Origin: Moniliella sp. 'wahieum'
Lineage: Eukaryota; Basidiomycota; Moniliellomycetes; Moniliellales; Moniliellaceae
Length of the DNA stretch: 64,000 nt
Direction: 5' to 3'
Assembly: GCA_003971905.1 (NCBI GenBank)
Contig: RSEE01000149.1
Span: 61,741 to 125,740, forward strand
Each line of letters opens with the position of its first letter. Position 1 is the stretch's first letter. Below are positions 24,391 through 38,472 of the stretch, piece after piece. The translations under genes were made by a program, and so were the position numbers. Under the pieces are notes generated by a model. It was given only the letters and a program-made list of their open reading frames with translations, did not search any database and had not been told where the DNA came from.

Positions 24391-27303
24391 ACAAGGTCAA
24401 GATGGCGTGTGGTGTGGGCCCAGCAAGCTGGCGGAGGTGGAGTGTGTCAGATGCGGCGGCGGGGGTTTGAAATTTGACGCACGGCGGGCGTACGTCGCTT
24501 TCCACCCGCCGACCGTCGGAGCGTGATCTGATCTCAGCCGCACACGCCGCCAGCGCCCTGCGGCTGAGGCCTGATCGATCCCAGATAGCGTGCATTTGAG
24601 CCTTGGAGAGCTGGGAGCGGCTGAGTCAAATGCTTACAGGTCACACCTGCCCATACCCGCTGGATGCTTCGTGTCCAAGCGCGCGACCTTGGCGCTCTTA
24701 GATCTTACGCCCCCGCACACTGCCCGCCCGCTGTCCGCACGGAATGGCGTCGAGCGGTTGAATGTTGAACGGGACGTCGACCTCAGTGAACGGGGTGACC
24801 GGCCGGTGACCAGTTGAACGGTTGAACGTTAAACCGTTCCTTGAACATTTGACTCCAGGCCCCTTTCCCGGGTCTGCCCGCGCTGACGCCGGCTGGGCCC
24901 GAGCGCGGAACGATGGCAGAGTGGGCGGCTTTTTACCACCGCCAAAGGTCGCATGTTCGCAGATGGGGCGGTGATCGAGTGATCGCTCGATGCTCGGATC
25001 ACCGATCGATCACCGGCGAAGTCACCCTTCCCAGTTGCCCCAGCCTCCGTCGAACCACCCGCTAGTCTGCCTGCCCAAACCACCGCCAAATTTCTAAGTC
25101 CACCGATTCAACCGTCCAGCTGCAGGCCCAGCGGAGAAGGGCAGTGTGCATACCACCAGCTGATAACTTTGTGCTTGCCTTTCTGGGCCAACGGTATTTT
25201 TCCCTTTTTTTCGCCCTTAAATTTGTCCGCTCGGACCTGTTGCAGGGGTAATACGTTGCACTCCCTAGGATCGTACTATAGCGATGGTCTTCGGGCACTC
25301 ATGCGGCGTTAGCGGTGCCGCCGTACCAAAGTGCGATCATCGATATTGCATCGATCAAGATCCAATCAACATTCGGATGATCTCTCGATCATCGACGATG
25401 CATGGTGCCCGATGCGCGATAGTCGACAAAGGGTGCACAGGCTTGGCACAGTTCCCAATGTCAACGAATGATGCACAATGGATCTTGCTGATGATGTAAT
25501 GGCGAGTGCTGGTCTAAGAAATATAGGTCCGGGTAGTGTCCAAGATGCTCTTTTCAGCCAAGCTTCAAGCTTCAAGCTCCAAGGCTTCAAGCTTCAAGCT
25601 TCATTAATCGCTCCTTTCTCGCAGACTCACATGGCTCACTTCAAGCATCATCGTCATCGATCGTTCCACATATAATAGGAACGGCGATATCGGTCATCGC
25701 TGAATCTCATCTCCGTTTCGGTCTCCTGGTTTCCATCTCAGTCTCTCCTTTGGCGCCCAAATGGATCGATACCGACAAAGTTTCCCATCATCTATATCAC
25801 TAGCTCATCAACGTTCATATTCAATGTCATTAATCTCCGACGTCATTAGTTCAATGCACTCACTATAGAGCAGAACCCCACAGTAATAGCCTTCAGACTA
25901 CGCTGACGTAGACGAAGCAACCCAACGAAGAAAAGGGACAGATGCGGTCCAATTTCTCTCTAAAAAAAGACCTATATTCTATCCCAGAGAGTGCGTGTGG
26001 AGAGTTGTGTGATGTGTGTGAGTCATATAATATCCCTTAGCTGGCCGTATGGTCAAACAGTAACAGCCTAGAATGTACGTGCCTTTTCTTGGTCTTCTGC
26101 CCGTTCCCACAGATAGAGTTGTAGAGACCAGGCTGACCAATCCCCACATTTGTTTTCCCAGTACCTCCTGTCATGTAGCCTAGGGGCTATAAGCGAGGGA
26201 GAGACGAGGCCCTGTCAGATCTGGGCGACGGGGAATGGCAAGATACCGTTCGTCAGAAGAGGATACAGGAGGCATCAGATAATATAGGGAACAGAAACAA
26301 AAGGGAAGAAGGGAAGGCGAGTAGATACACAGGATGCAGAATTGGAAATTGTGGAGAGAGAGCTCAGTCAGGAGACATAATGTCTCGTCTCTAATGTTAG
26401 GATATCCCCGCCGACGGATCCTGAAAGCCGAAAGCTTTGTAGCTTGGTGCCCTCCGCAGGTATCAGCTCCCAGATCTCAGTTCTAAGTAGGCACAGCTCT
26501 CATACCCTTTTGTTTTGGGAGCCTTGGCTGCAGCGACCTCAGGTCTGGTACCTGACCACATTCTTCACGAATATCTTCCTACATGACAAAACGCGGATAA
26601 TATGGAACCCTCCTCTCACTTATAACCATTCTATTGGAGATGCTGGCCCTTCGGCTAAGGTCTTCTTTCTGTACTGGTAATTCACTTCTCCTATCATCTC
26701 TCTCCGTAGGTTAGAGCCCAGAGAAGAAGGGACGCTGTCCGAATTTCGACTGAAAAGAAAATAGAAGCAGGAGCCGCTCTCTGTCTGCATCGGAGCCGAT
26801 CGGACGAAATCACAGGTCTTGCCTTCACACAGTCCGAAATGAATGTCTGATTGTCAGGCCCACTCTTCAAAACCTTCAAGAAAAAAAGAGAAGAGTATGA
26901 TAACGGATCAAAAGAAGGCCATTAACCATTAACTGCATTAACCCTCACATCCGTCAGTATTCATTACAAGATGGCCAACGGATTCGGCTCGTCCACTGTT
27001 CCGTCGTCCACACCGGTTGACTGTCCATACCACCAACATATAACAATTCTACTAATCGTCCATGAAAATTGTATGCTCGATGTATGTCGGTGGCGGCGAT
27101 GGCTGTGGCGGCAGTTGGGACACAAAAACGCGGTCCTATACAGAATCTTTTCCCATTGAATCCATTGTGTTGTGCACAACTTTTCAGTAGTATAACGGAA
27201 ACCCGTTCCGCGCCAAGGTTGCTCTCGTCCAGCGTTTGCTGACAGCTCGCGCCCGCCAAAATTGGAATCCAATGCAGTTCCCAGTAATCCACGGGACCCT
27301 CTC
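24391..27303. other. Long intergenic region up to the retrotransposon
   Basis: No gene is supported. Repeated words stand out: TTGAACG/CGTTCAA and GGTGACC copies at 24755-24850, GATCGAT/ATCGATC clusters at 24970-25015 and 25335-25385, and TTCAAGC heptamers at 25558-25604. Between 25900 and 27300 the DNA is more AT-rich with no recognisable coding, RNA or solo LTR. The short frames at 26444-26680 and 26954-27292 have no known domain. Confidence 0.45.
25558..25604. repeat. TTCAAGC heptamer cluster
   Basis: AAGCTTCAAGCTTCAAGC is followed by a spacer (TCCAAGG) and a second CTTCAAGCTTCAAGCTTC block, giving about five copies of the heptamer. The same word recurs in spacers across the window. Confidence 0.8.
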
Positions 27304-27484
27304 TGTCACAGTCGGGGCTAAGGCGAGGGAGACCAGGATCGGACTAGGCCAAGGGGTGTAGCAATCGTTCGTGGGGAAGAAGCAAGAACAGAGGACATGG
27401 TGCGAAGTGGAAGGAACAGGGAAGGAGCGAGACGCTCGAGACGAAGAAATTGGAAATGGGAGCGAGATCAGCCAAACTATGACA
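27304..27484 (-). repeat. 3' LTR of the chromovirus
   Basis: This is the 181-bp copy at the downstream end of the element, identical to 32880-33060. CTCTC precedes it on the plus strand, and the polypurine tract adjoins its inner edge. Confidence 0.95.
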
Positions 27485-27494
27485 TTGCCCCCTT

Positions 27495-30400
27495 TCAGAC
27501 CTCATCTCCCGGGCGGCGACGGAGGCGAGAGAGGGCGAGTCGGCGGGCATGGAGACAGCTATCGGGGTAGAGGGCTTGGAAACGGACCACTGGCTCGGCG
27601 TCATGAGACATGTCCGCAGCGGGTACCCACTCCCGCTCGTGGACAGGATAGCCCCGGAAGTGAACAAAGTACTCAATGCGGCCACCACGACCCTTGCGGC
27701 GAGAGTCGAGGACATGTTCAACCTCGTGATGAACCGCACCATCATCAGCATACTCGGGGAGAGGGGCGGGGCTCAATCAAGCGGGCAGGGACCACGTCAC
27801 CAGGGGTGTAGGCTCGCAAGCGGGACACATGGAACACGTCATGGGGTGTAGGTAGTCGGGGAGGCGGACCTGGTATGCGGCGCGGCCCACGGCGCGGACA
27901 ATGGGAAAGGGGCCGAGGTAGCGATAGTCGAGGCCGTCAGAAGGCCGCTGGCTGGCCACATAGCCGTCCCGACGGACCAAGACAGGCTGGCCAGCAGTAA
28001 GGAAGCCGCCTCGGTGCGCTGCTGATCGGCATAATGCTTGTAGCGGTCTTGGGCCGCGGCGAGCGTGCGGCGGGCCACCGCCTGGGCCGAGCGCAAGTCC
28101 TCCAAATATGACGCAGCATCGGGCACGGGCGAAGTGGAGGGCTCCAACTCCCCCCGGGGAGTAACCATAGGTGAGGACAAAGGGGGACTGGTGGGTGCTC
28201 GAGTGGGAGGACGAGTTGTAGGCGAATTCGGCCGGGGAGGAGGTCGAACCAGTTGGACTGCTGCTCGTCGAGGTAGCAGCGGAGGTGCTGTTCGAGGATC
28301 TGGTTGAGTCGCTCAGTCTGGCCGTCCGTCTGGGGGTGGTACGCGGTGTGAGGCTCGACTTGATGCCCAAGTCGGCACACAAGGCTTGCCAGAAGTGGCT
28401 TGTGAAGGTCGGTCCCCGATCACTCACCAGATCCCGAGGAAGGCCATGGTAGCGAAAGACATGGTGTACAAACTGGCGTGCGAGCTGGGGCGCAGTGTCC
28501 GTCGTGTGGGCGGGAATGAAGTGACCATTTTGGTAAAACGATCCACCACCACCAGAATCGCGTCGTAACCATTGGATCGGGGAAGCTGGGTAATGTGGTC
28601 CATCGTCAAGTGGGTCCAGGGGCCTTGGGGAGGGGGAAGGGGCTGAAGGAGTCCCGGGTTGGTGCGAGGCGCTTTGGTCCGTTGACAGCGGTCGCACGAG
28701 CGCACGTAGGCCCACACGTCGGCTGACAGGGGGCCACCAATATTGAGCGCGGACACGGGCCAACGTCTTGTCGCGCCCTTCATGGCCCGCCTGCCGAGTC
28801 GTGGGCTTGGTGGAGAATGGTAGCACGGATCGCGGGTCGCTGGACGTAATAGACCTGGTTTCCGTGCCACAAAAAGCCGTCGCGGACCGTCAAAGCATGG
28901 GGGTGGGGTGGGCCGTAGCAGGGACCAACGAGGGTCACGAGGCACGAGTTGGCGGATGCGCTGTCGAATCTCGTCGGCAGACACTCGCCCCACCACCGGC
29001 GTAACGGGGTCCGCCGCCATGAGCTCGAGGGCGGCGGCAGAACGTTCGGACATGGGCTCCACCTACTTGAGGTGCCGCGTCAGCGGGCCGGGACCCCTCC
29101 GCGAGGTCGGGACGGCGCGACAACCCGTCGGCTGCACCATTCTTCTGCCCGGCACGGTACACCATAGCAAGGCGGTAGGGGACAGGGTCTGGCGCCATCG
29201 GCCCTGGCGGCGGTTCAACAGGCGGGGGGCGGAACGTAGCAATGGCCTCGTGGTCCGTAAGCACTTGGACAGTCTCAACACTTTCGACGTAATGGCGCCA
29301 CACCTCCACGGCGGCCACGATGGCCAGCACCTCCTTTTCGGACGTAGTATAGTTCAGCTCGGCCGCGGTGAACTTGCGAGAATGGAAGGCGACCGGCCGC
29401 CAACGACCGTGAACATCCTGCTGGGCGAGCACCGCACCAAGCGCCGCGTCCGACGCGTCAGTCTCGAGGCGAAGGGCGAGTGGGATCAAAGTGGCAGAGG
29501 AGGTGGGGCGAGGCAAAGACGCGCTTGAGCTCGGCAAATGCCGCTTCGCAGGCTGGGGTCCAAGAAAACCGCTGGTCCTTGCGTGTCAGGTCGGACAGGG
29601 GGGCTGAGATACGGGCAAAAGAACGGACGAAGTGACGGTAGTAGTTGGCGAAGCCGAGGAAGACTTGAACTTGGCGAGAGGTTCTGGGTGTTGGCCACGA
29701 CCGAATCGACTCAACCTTGGACGGGTCCATCCCGATCCCGTCAGGCGAAACGACGTAGCCCAGGTACTCGGTGCGGCGTGTGTGGAACTGACACTTGTCG
29801 GGATTGAGGTAGAACTTGGCCAGCTGCAGACGCCGGAGGACCTCGGCAACGTGGCGCGCGTGCTCCATCTCATTAGTCGAGAAGATGAGGATGTCGTCGA
29901 GGTATGCCAGTACCGAGACGTCGAGGAGGTCGCGGAGGAGGTCGTTCATCACAGCTTGGAAGGTGGCAGGGGTTGCAAAGGCCAAACGGCATAACAAGGG
30001 ATTCAAAGTGTCCGTACCGAGTGCGGAAGGCAGTCTTACTCTCGTCGCCTTCTCTCACCCGCAACAAGTTATACGCCCCACGGAGGTCAAGCTTGGTGAA
30101 GATGCGGGCCCTCGAGAGGCGGTCCAACGAGTCGCTAATCAGAGGCAGAGCCAACCGGTTCTTGATCGTAACCGAGTTGAGCGCACGATAGTCCACGCAC
30201 AGGCGCAACGAGCCGTCCTTCTTTTTGAAAAACAGGACGCCCGCGCCGAAGGGGACTTGGACGGACGGATGAACCCGGCAGCCAGGTTCTCCTTGAGCCA
30301 CTGGGACAAGGCCTGCATTTCGCCCGTCGACAAGGGGTAGAGGCGAGTGAAGGTGGGGGCGGCGCCGGGGACAAGGTCGATGGCGTGATCGGCGGCACGA

Positions 30401-30649
30401 TGGGCGGGGAGCGTCTTAGCCCCTGACTTGGAAAAGGCGCTAAGGAAGGAGTGGTAGCGGGGAGGGACTGTCTGGCGGACGTGCTCGAGGTACTCGGGTG
30501 TCAAACTCGTCGGGAAACATTGGCTCGGGACCGCCAGCGACCGCGACGGACGAGACGGCCAACTCGGGCTCAGGGGGAAAGGCGACGTTTACCATGGCCT
30601 CGGGTTCCTTGACCACCTCGAGCTCAAACTGCTCCAGAGAGAATGTCAA
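27495..30649 (-). CDS. pol: Retrotransposon pol: reverse transcriptase, RNase H, integrase, chromodomain (frame-broken)
   Basis: This is the second half of the element's polyprotein. Reverse transcriptase runs from about 30300 to 29500, with [30 protein letters not shown] and the catalytic YLDD at 29893-29904. RNase H follows with [18 protein letters not shown] (about 29470-29420) and [13 protein letters not shown]. Integrase has a zinc-binding part and the catalytic core: [20 protein letters not shown] with the first Asp (about 28600), [17 protein letters not shown] with the second (about 28410) and [17 protein letters not shown] with the Glu (about 28310). A chromodomain closes the protein (about 27710-27560), with [19 protein letters not shown] and EREWVPA. 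Chromodomains of this kind target insertion to marked chromatin. Frames switch near 29990, 29500, 28400, 28250 and 27800. The stop is at 27495. Confidence 0.92.
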
Positions 30650-32838
30650 TAGGCGGTCCAGACCGAGAAGGCAAGGAGGGACCCGGGCCAGAGGGCGCCG
30701 AGGAAGGGTGTGGGGGAGGCTGCGTACCGCGCGAAGGGGGGTGGGACGAAGTGGGCAAGGGAGGGGAGGAGGGACGGGCTGGGAGGGAACCGAGGAGGGA
30801 AAAGGAATCGAGTTGACAGAGGGGGGCGAGATGGGGTTAGGTGGGGAGGTGGACTTGGGCCGGGGCCCGGGCGAGTGCTGGTGCTGGTGCGTAGTCTTGG
30901 TCTTGGGCTGGTCTTGGTGCTTGGGCTGTCTTGGTGCTTGGGCTGGTCTTGGTGCTTGGGCTGGTCTTGGTGCTTGGGCTGGTCTTGGTGCTTGGGCTGG
31001 TTCTGGTGCTTGGGCTGGTCTTGGGGCTGAGGCCGGGGTACAGTCGTGGAAGGCATATGGTGATCACGGCACTGCACCTTATCAAAGTAAAGGGTGTGCG
31101 AGGGGTAGTCGGTGCTGGGGTTGTGAGTTTCCAGAAAAGGGAGACCGAGGATGAGGGGGTGATGGAGGGAAGTGAGGAAAAACTCCTCAGTTGAGACATG
31201 GGAGCCGATCACGACAGGCGCCTTCACCGCTTGGGTCACCAGACCCGAGGAAATGGGACGCCCGTCTACCACCCTGACGACCACGGGCGACGGCAGCGTG
31301 CGAGGAACCAGGCCATGCTGGCGGGCAAAACCATGGTCCATGAAAATACTGTTCGCACCAGAGTCGACCAAGGCGGTGACCGGGATCGGGGAAAGGGAGA
31401 CGGAGACGAGGGGCCAGGATGCAGATGGCGAGTAACGTGAAAGACCGAGAGGAGGGGGGACAGGGCCCCACTGCCCCTCAGACAGAATCAGCGGCGGGGC
31501 CGAGGAGGCGGCGGGAGACCTGGACGTGGGGCACTCGGCAATGAGGTGGTCACGGGAACCGCAGTAGAAGCACGCACCTTGAGCGCGGCGCTCGGTGCGC
31601 CGTGCCGCCGCTTCGGCGGTGGCGGTGGCTGCGCTGAGGTCCATGGGCTCGGCTTCGGGCGACGAGGGCCGAAACCAATGATTGCCGCCCGATCCCGGGG
31701 AGGTTGCGGTACCACGAGCGCCCAGCGATTGCGATTGGTCGATGTCAATGGCCGCTGTGCGCAGTTGTTCGAAACTGATCCGTCCAAAGTGAGCCGACTC
31801 GCCGCGGGAGGCGATTGCGTCACGCACCCGCGGCTTCAAGCCGTACAGAAAGTAATAGTAGCGGTCCTCATCCGACGCGTTGGGGTTCCAGCGACGTAGC
31901 AGAACCGTGAACGTAGCGGAATAGTCCGCTGCAGATCCTGTCTGCCGAAGACGACGAAACTCCTCAAACGCCTTCAGCGCCGGGTTGCGCTCGCCCACTG
32001 CTCCAGGAAAGCTGCGCGAAACGCAGGCCAAGACTGGAGGGCGGTGTGGTGCGCGCCTCCAGGGGAAGGGCCACCTCCGAGCCGAACTGCTCGACCCAAG
32101 TGAGGGCCTCTCCCTGCAGCAGGCCCATGAAGCGGTCGATCCATGCCGCCGCGCCCATATGCGTGAGGGCGACGCGCGCGTAAATCTCGAAGGAGGTGAC
32201 GACGTGCTGGGCCTGGACCGGTCACGAGAGTTGGGATTCGCACCAGACGACGGGCGGAAACGAACGGGCTCGAACATCTTAGGCTCTTCCGACACCGTGT
32301 TCGGGATGGCAGTCAGATCACCATAAGGCCCAGGGGCGGGAGCGGGGGCGGGGGCCGAGGACACCACGCCAGTTTGAGCCTCCCGTACCGAGGCGGCCAA
32401 CCGGGCCTCTTCCGCGGCAAGCGCCGCCTCCTCCCGCCGCTGACGGAGGCGGTGCTCACGGCGCTTCGCCTCTTGCTCATCCTCGAAAGCGCGGCGCTGG
32501 TCCTCCTGGGCTGCAAGGTAGGCCTGGTGTTCCCGGGCCTCCGTCAACAGAAGCTGGCGCATTCTGCGGGCCTCATCGACCCGGCGCTGAGCGGCCTCGA
32601 GGTCCAGGCCGGACAAGTCGGAGGCAGGCAATGTATACCCCGGGGGCGCGGGCGCAACAGACGGAGCTGCATGGGGGGGTTCAGAGGGCCCAGCCGGGTG
32701 GAACCACTCCGGGCCATCGTCGTCGAACGGAGCGTCAGAGGGGGGGTCGGACGGGGGTCGGATCGGGCCGCGCCGCGCGATGGGGTGCGGCGCGCTAGGG
32801 TTACTGGGGTCACGGGGGTTGTCGTGGATCGAGGACAT
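30646..32838 (-). CDS. gag: Retrotransposon gag and protease
   Basis: The capsid-type protein starts at an ATG at 32838 shortly after the primer site. It has a Pro-rich head, a long Glu/Arg/Ala helical segment (about residues 75-165), and the capsid core with AFEEFRRLRQTGSAADYSA and RYYYFLYGLKPRVRDAIAS. The core is partly read in another frame (about 32240-31960, with IDRFMGLLQGEALTWVEQF). A CCHC knuckle CFYCGSRDHLIAEC lies at 31530-31575. The aspartic protease active site VDSGANS is at 31351-31365, followed by LILGLPFLETHNP, the family's ILG motif. After the protease comes a repeated DQPKHQ linker (about 31025-30890). The frame as given ends at 30646, just before the reverse transcriptase. 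Confidence 0.9.
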   Translation of the reverse strand: MSSIHDNPRDPSNPSAPHPIARRGPIRPPSDPPSDAPFDDDGPEWFHPAGPSEPPHAAPSVAPAPPGYTLPASDLSGLDLEAAQRRVDEARRMRQLLLTEAREHQAYLAAQEDQRRAFEDEQEAKRREHRLRQRREEAALAAEEARLAASVREAQTGVVSSAPAPAPAPGPYGDLTAIPNTVSEEPKMFEPVRFRPSSGANPNSRDRSRPSTSSPPSRFTRASPSRIWARRHGSTASWACCRERPSLGSSSSARRWPFPWRRAPHRPPVLACVSRSFPGAVGERNPALKAFEEFRRLRQTGSAADYSATFTVLLRRWNPNASDEDRYYYFLYGLKPRVRDAIASRGESAHFGRISFEQLRTAAIDIDQSQSLGARGTATSPGSGGNHWFRPSSPEAEPMDLSAATATAEAAARRTERRAQGACFYCGSRDHLIAECPTSRSPAASSAPPLILSEGQWGPVPPPLGLSRYSPSASWPLVSVSLSPIPVTALVDSGANSIFMDHGFARQHGLVPRTLPSPVVVRVVDGRPISSGLVTQAVKAPVVIGSHVSTEEFFLTSLHHPLILGLPFLETHNPSTDYPSHTLYFDKVQCRDHHMPSTTVPRPQPQDQPKHQNQPKHQDQPKHQDQPKHQDQPKHQDSPSTKTSPRPRLRTSTSTRPGPGPSPPPHLTPSRPPLSTRFLFPPRFPPSPSLLPSLAHFVPPPFARYAASPTPFLGALWPGSLLAFSVWTAY
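30890..31025 (-). repeat. In-frame DQPKHQ-type coding repeat between protease and reverse transcriptase
   Basis: A unit of about 18 nt, reading CTTGGTGCTTGGGCTGGT on the plus strand, is repeated about six to seven times. On the coding strand it encodes QPKHQD repeats, a charged, unstructured linker inside the polyprotein. Confidence 0.8.
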
Positions 32839-32868
32839 GTCTGGTCGGGCTCGCCTGTTGACGGTTAG

Positions 32869-32877
32869 ACGAACGAT
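32869..32877 (-). promoter_or_regulatory. Probable self-priming primer-binding site of the retrotransposon
   Basis: On the element's sense strand, two bases after the end of the upstream LTR, stands ATCGTTCGT. The sense strand of the LTR contains the exact complement ACGAACGAT (32940-32948; second copy 27364-27372). No sequence matching a tRNA 3' end is present at this place. Elements of the Tf1/sushi group prime reverse transcription by folding the 5' end of their own RNA onto such a site. Confidence 0.6.
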
Positions 32878-32879
32878 AA

Positions 32880-33060
32880 TGTCACAGTCGGGGCTAAGGC
32901 GAGGGAGACCAGGATCGGACTAGGCCAAGGGGTGTAGCAATCGTTCGTGGGGAAGAAGCAAGAACAGAGGACATGGTGCGAAGTGGAAGGAACAGGGAAG
33001 GAGCGAGACGCTCGAGACGAAGAAATTGGAAATGGGAGCGAGATCAGCCAAACTATGACA
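32880..33060 (-). repeat. 5' LTR of the chromovirus
   Basis: This is the 181-bp copy at the upstream end of the minus-strand element, identical to 27304-27484. CTCTC follows it on the plus strand as the target duplication. Confidence 0.95.
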
Positions 33061-33065
33061 CTCTC

Positions 33066-36838: not shown

Positions 36839-38472
36839 TCACTCATCGTCGTAGGAGAACTTGATCGAGTGGGAGCCTTGGTCGATCAAGCCACCGCGGT
36901 AAGAGCCCTTGCGGAACTTGTCCTTTTGCTTGGTGAACGACTTGCCGCGCGTGACGATCATCTGTTCCGACGCCTTGGCCCCCCAGTCCCCAGCACCGCT
37001 CTTGGCTGCGTACGAGTTATCCCTCAACCGATCGTCAAGGAACGTCACATCTTCCGCCTTGATCCGTGGAACCGGTTTGCCACCCAGAGCCTTTGGTTCG
37101 TCCCTCGCGCGGAGTCGAGGAGCTAGGCTGAAATTCTTGCTGCTTCCTTGGCGTTCTGCAGAGGACACATTCGCCGGAGATGCCTTCCGTTTCTGCCCAA
37201 TCACAGGAGCCGGCTCCTTGTCCGACGCGGAGCTGGAGCTGGAGGAACTAGAGCTAGAGGAGCTAGAGCTGGATGACTGGGCTGGAGCTGGACGAGTCCG
37301 AGTCCGAGTCCGAGTCTGTCTGAGTCAGACGAGTCGGAAGAGTCAGAAGAGTCGAAAGAGTCTGACGAGTCAGAAGAGTCGGAAGAGTCGGACGAGTCAG
37401 AAGAGTCGGACGAGCTCGAGTCGCTGTCCGAGCTGGAACTGGAGCCGGAGCTGTCCGAGTCCGAGTCCAGGAGAGTCCGAGGAAGAGTCGAAGAAGAATC
37501 GCTGTCCGAGCTGTCCGAGCTATCCGAGCTGGAGCTGCTTCCGCCGTTGCTGGCCTTGTCCTTCTCAGTCGAGACACTCTCCCCCGTCAGGGTGGCGGAG
37601 ACGGCAGACCCCTCGCTCCCTGGCGCACTAACGGGCTTCTCCTCTTCGTTATCCGAGTCGTCGTCCGAGTCGTTGTCCGAGTCTGAGGAGTCGCTATCCG
37701 ATGACGAGGACGAGGACGAAAGAAGAGAGGAAGATGAGTCACTGTCCGAGTCGGAGGAGCCCGAGGAGCTCGAACATGCTGTCCACCTTGGCGGCTACCT
37801 CTTCTCGTCTCCTTCTTCGCTGCCGGCTCATCTTCCGAATCAGAGTCCGACGAGTCACTGTCCGAATCCGAGTCAGAAGAGGACGAAGATGAGGACGAGT
37901 CACTGGCCGAATCCGAGGAGCTTGAGCTGTTGGCAGCTTGGGCAGGGGCCTCCTTCTCCTTCTCGTCCTCTGAGTCCGAGTCCGAGTCAGAATAGGAGAG
38001 GGAAGAGGAAGAGGAAGAGGAAGAGGAAGAGGACGAGTCGCTGTCCGAATCCGAGTCGGAGGACTCGAGTCATCGTCGCGGACGTTTGGGCGACGTGCCG
38101 CTCGGCTTCGGAGGGGGACTCATATCGGTCCCCCTCTCCATCATCTCACTCGAGGAAGAGGAGGAGGAGGAGGAAGCATCGCCCACCTGCTCTTCCACCG
38201 CGTCTTCCATCTCGACATCAGAGTCCGAGTCCGAGTCCGAGTCCGAGTCCGAGTCTGAGCTCGACGACGAATCCGAAGACGAGTCTGAGTCGGACGACGA
38301 ATCGGACGAATCGGACGAATCCGAGTCGGAGGTAGGCTTGGACTTGGTGAGCTTCGTGTTGGCTGGCGTGGCAGCTAGCAGTATGTGTTAGTCCGCACAC
38401 GAATTCAGTGAGGAAGGACGTACCCAATGCCTTGGTAGTGGAGGAGACCTTCTTGCCCACCTTGACAGCCAT
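36839..38472 (-). CDS. Srp40/Nopp140-like nucleolar phosphoprotein, one intron
   Basis: This nucleolar chaperone-like protein is associated with snoRNP assembly and Pol I transcription in the Srp40/NOLC1 family. The start is in ACCATGGC context at 38472 (MAVKVGKKVSSTTKAL). A 49-nt intron (38375-38423, donor GTACGT, acceptor CTAG) leads to ATPANTKLTKSKPTSDSD. The middle is long runs of Ser, Asp and Glu interrupted by Lys-rich parts, as typical for casein kinase 2 substrates of this family. The carboxyl domain (37140-36839) is the diagnostic Srp40 C-terminal domain: VTFLDDRLRDNSY, GDWGAKASEQMIVTRGKSF, RKGSYRGGLIDQGSHSIKF. The acidic repeats are read in shifting frames between about 37200 and 38300, so exact length (about 530 aa) is approximate. 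The gene lies 140 nt from the convergent bHLH gene. Confidence 0.9.

Follow-up and report, generated by a model that had tools for sequence, protein, structure and literature searches.

Minus-strand DNA of LTR elements starts just behind the 5′ LTR. Tf1 of Schizosaccharomyces pombe was the first element shown to prime its own reverse transcription (PMC4600332): the first 11 bases of its RNA pair with the primer-binding site (PBS) and are then cut off by RNase H (PMC7175516), and a structure of three RNA duplexes has been described around the Tf1 primer and PBS (PMC10085805). In the portions of these and related papers on which we draw, self-priming is described as common among Tf1/sushi elements (PMC10085805), has been proposed for Tj1 (PMC4600332) and for Cryptococcus Tcn1 (PMC7175516), is predicted for the Tcn1 and TAR lineages (PMC6317226), and is attributed to the fungal elements Maggy, Skippy, Boty, Grasshopper, Cft-1, and Afut1 (PMC6934838). 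Beyond Tf1, self-priming has mostly been implicated through word matches (PMC4600332, PMC6317226), and non-tRNA priming is discussed in PMC5006619, PMC2864245, PMC5445492, and PMC3601003.

Judged by its sequence, the minus-strand element at 27304–33060 of the window (the whole stretch of 64,000 nucleotides that was analyzed) is a chromovirus, or chromodomain Ty3/gypsy element, whose family we call A. An earlier note on this DNA had described it as a chromovirus with a self-priming PBS. The identity is borne out by Pfam searches, run separately on each broken frame, which recovered reverse transcriptase (RT), RNase H, and integrase in gypsy order, together with a C-terminal chromodomain. The 5′ LTR (32880–33060, reading TGTCATAG...CTGTGACA in the sense direction) and the 3′ LTR (27304–27484) are both 181 bp long and identical at 181/181 positions; they start with TG and end with CA, and the element lies between copies of a 5 bp target duplication, CTCTC, read directly at 27299–27303 (left) and 33061–33065 (right). 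An open frame for gag and protease (30646–32838) matches zf-CCHC, a zinc knuckle (0.0024), and gag-asp_proteas (1.5e-05), both under the curated cut-off, as well as the aspartyl protease family Asp_protease_2 (2.4e-05), over it. RT is in two pieces in different frames (29458–30415), each with an RVT_1 match, and is followed by an RNase H piece (28935–29585; RT_RNaseH, 8.6e-29). The integrase piece (27777–28889) matches Integrase_H2C2 above the cut-off, the integrase core rve below its curated cut-off, and SH3_Tf2-1 at 30.4 bits, just over the cut-off of 30. The chromodomain (27495–27776; Chromo, 1.4e-08, above cut-off) is followed by a putative polypurine tract, assigned from its position next to the 3′ LTR and read directly as AAAGGGGGCAA in the sense direction (27485–27495). 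All of these coding and priming features lie on the minus strand; the pol frames of this copy are broken, although its two LTRs do not differ. The genome (69.5 Mb in 223 contigs) holds at least 44 family A LTR matches, with 40 of 457 candidates scored, and 23 canonical family A PBS contexts at three or fewer mismatches, a count that is not de-duplicated.

Two repeat runs were also seen in the window. Within the element, an 18-base unit that codes for QPKHQD-like repeats in the sense direction is repeated in tandem (30875–31053), in the stretch separating the protease match from the first RT match. Outside the element, a long run of GAGTC/GTCCGAG-type repeats (37282–38283) could encode an acidic, serine-rich stretch.

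Immediately behind the 5′ LTR, the sense strand reads TT (32879–32878), a spacer that is also 1–2 bases long in families B, D, and E described below, then ATCGTTCGT (32877–32869), the putative PBS, and then CTAACC. The exact complement that the earlier note had placed in the sense LTR, ACGAACGAT, is indeed there, at LTR positions 113–121 (32948–32940, minus strand), and would mark the RNA 5′ end and the start of R. The plus strand of the window has a single copy of ACGAACGAT (32869) and two of ATCGTTCGT (27364 and 32940), one per LTR. A nine-base match at this location had been called unlikely by chance. That judgment agrees with LTR shuffling, in which none of 5000 mononucleotide shuffles reached 9 nt at offsets 0–3, but 1 of the 1455 other downstream start positions in family A also carries a 9-nt complement to the LTR. 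Because nine bases are rare and not unique, it is the position of the match, not its length, that carries the argument.

The check proposed in the earlier note, a comparison of the PBS word with the LTR word across related elements, was carried out. We chose 15 relatives from 75 RT matches and searched their flanks for LTR pairs; another relative, on C97, was left out, as the contig does not extend to its upstream stretch. An LTR pair was found for nine (on contigs C127, C37, C75, C46, C27, C22, C58, C154, and C2, the last with a rearranged 3′ LTR), and six had no clear pair (C24, C39, C45, C61, C52, and C84, for which there was just a weak match of 159 bases at 76%). All nine carry a complement of 9–14 nt at offset 1–2, and they fall into three families with three word pairs. 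Family B (C127, C27, C22, and C58; RT 77%–81% identical) has the same 9-nt pair as A, ATCGTTCGT/ACGAACGAT, and its LTR can be aligned with the A LTR in short blocks only, one of which is the word. Family D (C37, C2, and C154; LTR about 825 bp; RT 35%–36%) has the 10-nt pair AATGGAGGGT/ACCCTCCATT, and family E (C75 and C46; LTR 771 bp; RT 34%–42%) has the 14-nt pair ATGGTCGGCGGCTT/AAGCCGCCGACCAT. As in A, no shuffle out of 5000 reproduced the pair of B or E, and the chance for D, the weakest pair, was 0.0072; equal or longer complements were found at 0/382 other downstream positions in B, 0/834 in D, and 0/218 in E. Among the relatives compared, both partners of the word pair are thus kept or replaced in concert. 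The first base of the word is A in every family, and upstream of it lies either TATAAAA, starting 40 nt before the word (E), or a pyrimidine-rich stretch (A, B, and D).

A first search of the genome with the LTR revealed LTRs with a reversed partial LTR directly behind them. These fold-backs have the structure LTR-TT-ATCGTTCGT-GGGGAAGAAGC..., so that the PBS runs into the reverse complement of U3 and not into gag, and their outer end is the first base of the LTR. Junction patterns matched 15 sites for family A and 6 for family B, and 16 sites were left after we excluded four from A (C18, C92, and C132, which are LTR copies minus one A, and C30, where a reversed LTR fragment stands by itself) and one from B (C17:693667, the sequence of which was not inspected). 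Three pairs of sites (C145/C190, C7/C40, and C20/C159) have the same flanks, and the 16 sites represent 13 distinct loci, 10 in family A (C145, C36, C38, C16, C39, C5, C50, C58, C7, and C44, which has a short arm) and 3 in family B (C6, C73, and C20). The constancy of the joint is partly a matter of construction, because both junction patterns contained the word. In a broader LTR search, with a query that included the PBS word and with 40 of 457 candidates scored, all four close inverted pairs among the 44 matches listed were joined at the word (C190, C145, C36, and C16, the first two representing one event). Older fold-backs are less exact: C7/C40 have extra bases between the LTR end and the word, and the word is mutated in C44, C50, and C58. 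In both copies, the family B fold-back of C20/C159 (L092, L093) is located where a family-D-like LTR (89% identical) ends, and was apparently carried along with this surrounding sequence.

Exact 5 bp target repeats (GGCCT, GTCGT, CTCCG, CCCCC, and GACAC) flank the fold-backs at 5 of the 13 loci. The other eight lack an exact repeat; C39 (GTTT, off by one T) and C16 (3/5) are near misses, and the remaining six, which are old or truncated, have no recognizable target repeat abutting the unit, the left arm being shortened in C58 and C20. Two fold-backs have a variant common to both arms. In C73 it is a one-T deletion, present in none of nine other B words matched in a sampled part of the genome (two of these nine are the arms of C6). 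In C39 it is a one-C deletion that is also found in one other LTR (L012, at C37), which points to a common parent and not to copying between arms. Variants of this kind, which change the length of a run by a single base, could have arisen as errors in the assembly.

The self-priming reading of the earlier note gains support from three sides: the relatives, which keep or replace the word pair; the chromodomain with its accompanying SH3_Tf2-1 match; and the fold-backs joined at the word. The letters themselves show that the two words match exactly, where they lie, that relatives either keep the pair or replace both partners together, and that the fold-backs exist; on these grounds we consider it highly likely that this family primes itself. 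By analogy with Tf1, the RNA would start at the word, so that its beginning, ACGAACGAU, folds onto AUCGUUCGU just past the LTR and, once released by RNase H, primes minus-strand DNA. The Tf1 primer is reportedly retained, according to a paper from 2006. If it is retained here too, plus-strand strong-stop DNA would copy it and its 3′ end would read ATCGTTCGT. This end may fail to transfer to the minus strand and anneal instead to ACGAACGAT in its own R or in that of a second such molecule; extension through U3 to the 5′ end would then yield U3-R-U5-TT-PBS-rc(U3). If two strong-stop molecules primed each other, the result would be a linear duplex, with a bubble at its center and a U3 end on each side, that is plausibly a substrate for integrase. 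In a self-primed element, the primer copy is complementary to the strand's own R, which predicts the order, the joint, and the outer end of the fold-backs. We consider such a snap-back the likely origin of the fold-backs, and the explanation as a whole, self-primed reverse transcription with fold-backs as its snap-back products, very likely.

Two other sources of the fold-backs were considered and rejected. Autointegration was rejected by reasoning, because the join is internal in the LTR (after position 112), with 9 nt of homology, and not at the LTR end. If a long RNA primer had been retained and read through, an identical sequence would have resulted only from an RNA starting precisely at LTR base 1, which we judged unlikely.

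The alternative that survives best is that the fold-backs are a palindromic family that amplifies itself and is mobilized by integrase, or else rearrangements that took place after integration. Amplification would account for the near-identity of several young A fold-backs with the A LTR, and hence with each other, and for the three fold-backs that are present twice. The flanks of these three, however, are common over 0.6–2.2 kb, which indicates copied chromosome segments or haplotypes and not transposition. The structure also arose in both A and B, and the normal cycle should not copy a palindrome whose two ends are both U3. Rearrangement after integration is difficult to reconcile with the target repeats at the outer U3 ends, which indicate that the units at those five loci were made before they integrated. 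We therefore regard this alternative as unlikely, and prefer snap-back of strong-stop DNA as the source.

Searches for related structures gave three further results. The minus-strand counterpart (rc(U5)-PBS-gag side), which would form if the PBS end of the minus strand primed on reversed R, had no match in family A at three or fewer mismatches and is absent from the list of family A PBS contexts as well, and a search for family D fold-backs gave no matches. Family E has a single exact fold-back junction, at C106:2139-2169 (L096), which reads CGTCACA-TT-14-nt PBS-reversed U3; this rearranged locus, where a reversed LTR end precedes the junction and the left U3 arm is missing, may be a rearranged fold-back or a deleted LTR, and stands outside the 13. 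A full-length family A element at C48:440942-446706 (L020, L007) has an inverted 3′ LTR joined as PPT-AAA-reversed LTR; each of its LTRs has the same sequence as the window LTR, and the element is flanked by TACTC/TACCC. As a second aberrant product, it also fits the misuse of a strong-stop 3′ end.

A different objection would be that a tRNA or other cellular RNA primes the element and that the word in the LTR is coincidental. The one equal match elsewhere in family A leaves the lone 9-mer short of overwhelming, and in D and E the PBS region has a TGG, a feature of tRNA-type sites, three bases past the LTR. The first 15 nt after the family A LTR, however, do not contain TGG, and none of the 13 distinct 3′ ends of 40 tRNA genes from a sampled part of the genome fits the family A PBS by inspection. 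A pattern of T-arm and acceptor stem for the tRNA that D would need had 1 match (reversed control, 4), and that for E had 14 (reversed control, 5), an excess in favor of a tRNA for E; but none of the five matches tested with ARAGORN (1/1 for D and 4/14 for E) is a tRNA gene. Coincidence would moreover have to account for three distinct word pairs of up to 14 nt across four families, and we consider it highly improbable that a cellular RNA is the primer.

During this survey we observed that tRNA-Ala(AGC) genes are repeated at dispersed places (L036–L065) and that some locus pairs are collinear, at 93%–98% over kilobases (e.g., L041/L050 and L037/L038), which suggests an assembly holding both haplotypes or segmental copies. 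Repeated equal scores had raised the suspicion of a tRNA-Ala SINE; this was rejected when the commonest shared stretch proved to be the tRNA gene itself.

In predicted folds of the R-U5-PBS RNA, the word pairs with the PBS at a probability of 0.59–1.0 in A, B, D, and E, and the resulting stem closes the R-U5 region in all four, as would be expected of a conserved RNA stem that serves packaging, dimerization, or translation control and has no priming role; yet the pair lies 1–2 bases past the LTR, at the place where minus-strand DNA begins, A has no tRNA-type site there, and the fold-backs suggest that the end of the PBS word served as a priming 3′ end, all of which leaves this reading a very slim chance.

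On balance, we lean toward the view that the fold-backs reflect a failure built into self-primed LTR retrotransposons in general, in which plus-strand strong-stop DNA would snap back and U3-R-U5-PBS-rc(U3) would integrate to form palindromic mini-elements, whose numbers would be similar in magnitude to those of full-length insertions. In family A, 10 distinct fold-back loci compare with the 23 canonical PBS sites, the latter not de-duplicated. If this is correct, a mode of priming is tied to a specific class of palindromic insertions, and the fold-backs are a purely genomic diagnostic of self-priming; as the scar is expected to need complementarity between PBS and R, it would allow self-priming to be tested from assemblies alone. 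The scar would also show that the primer copy is present on plus-strand DNA in vivo and that integrase can use two U3 ends, and in the host, hairpin DNA or double-stranded RNA would repeatedly arise from the fold-backs.

Among described systems, the window element most resembles Tf1 and the Tf1/sushi chromoviruses, as far as the portions of the sources used here describe them. It shares with them a PBS behind the LTR that is complementary to the presumed RNA start within the LTR, a chromodomain, and a match to the Tf2-1-type SH3 domain, and the A/B site lacks a tRNA-type TGG. The likeness lies in the word pair and the domains, and Tf1 pairs 11 bases with its PBS as against the 9-nt pair here; for Tf1 three RNA duplexes are described, whereas here the pairing of word and PBS alone is predicted. 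Fold-back insertions do not figure in the portions of PMC7175516 and PMC10085805 on which we draw, and the literature searched, seen in part and with subscription journals outside its scope, gave no account of integrated fold-backs joined at the PBS. Tj1 of S. japonicus is alike in having an upstream LTR region complementary to the PBS that is proposed as a self-primer, but it differs in host and sequence, and it is reported to be active (PMC4600332), whereas the window copy is frame-broken. Maggy, Skippy, Boty, Grasshopper, Cft-1, and Afut1 (PMC6934838) and Tcn1 (PMC7175516) are alike by description, in that they have no conventional PBS and self-priming is stated or proposed. For the window element, the probable self-priming mechanism is thus one already published for Tf1, Tj1, and other chromoviruses, and the new part is the fold-backs as a likely scar of that mechanism. 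Retroviral strong-stop DNA can snap back or prime itself in vitro. The fold-backs resemble this behavior in that strong-stop DNA would fold on itself and prime, but here the strand would be the plus strand, the priming would be by the PBS word, and the products are found integrated with target repeats.
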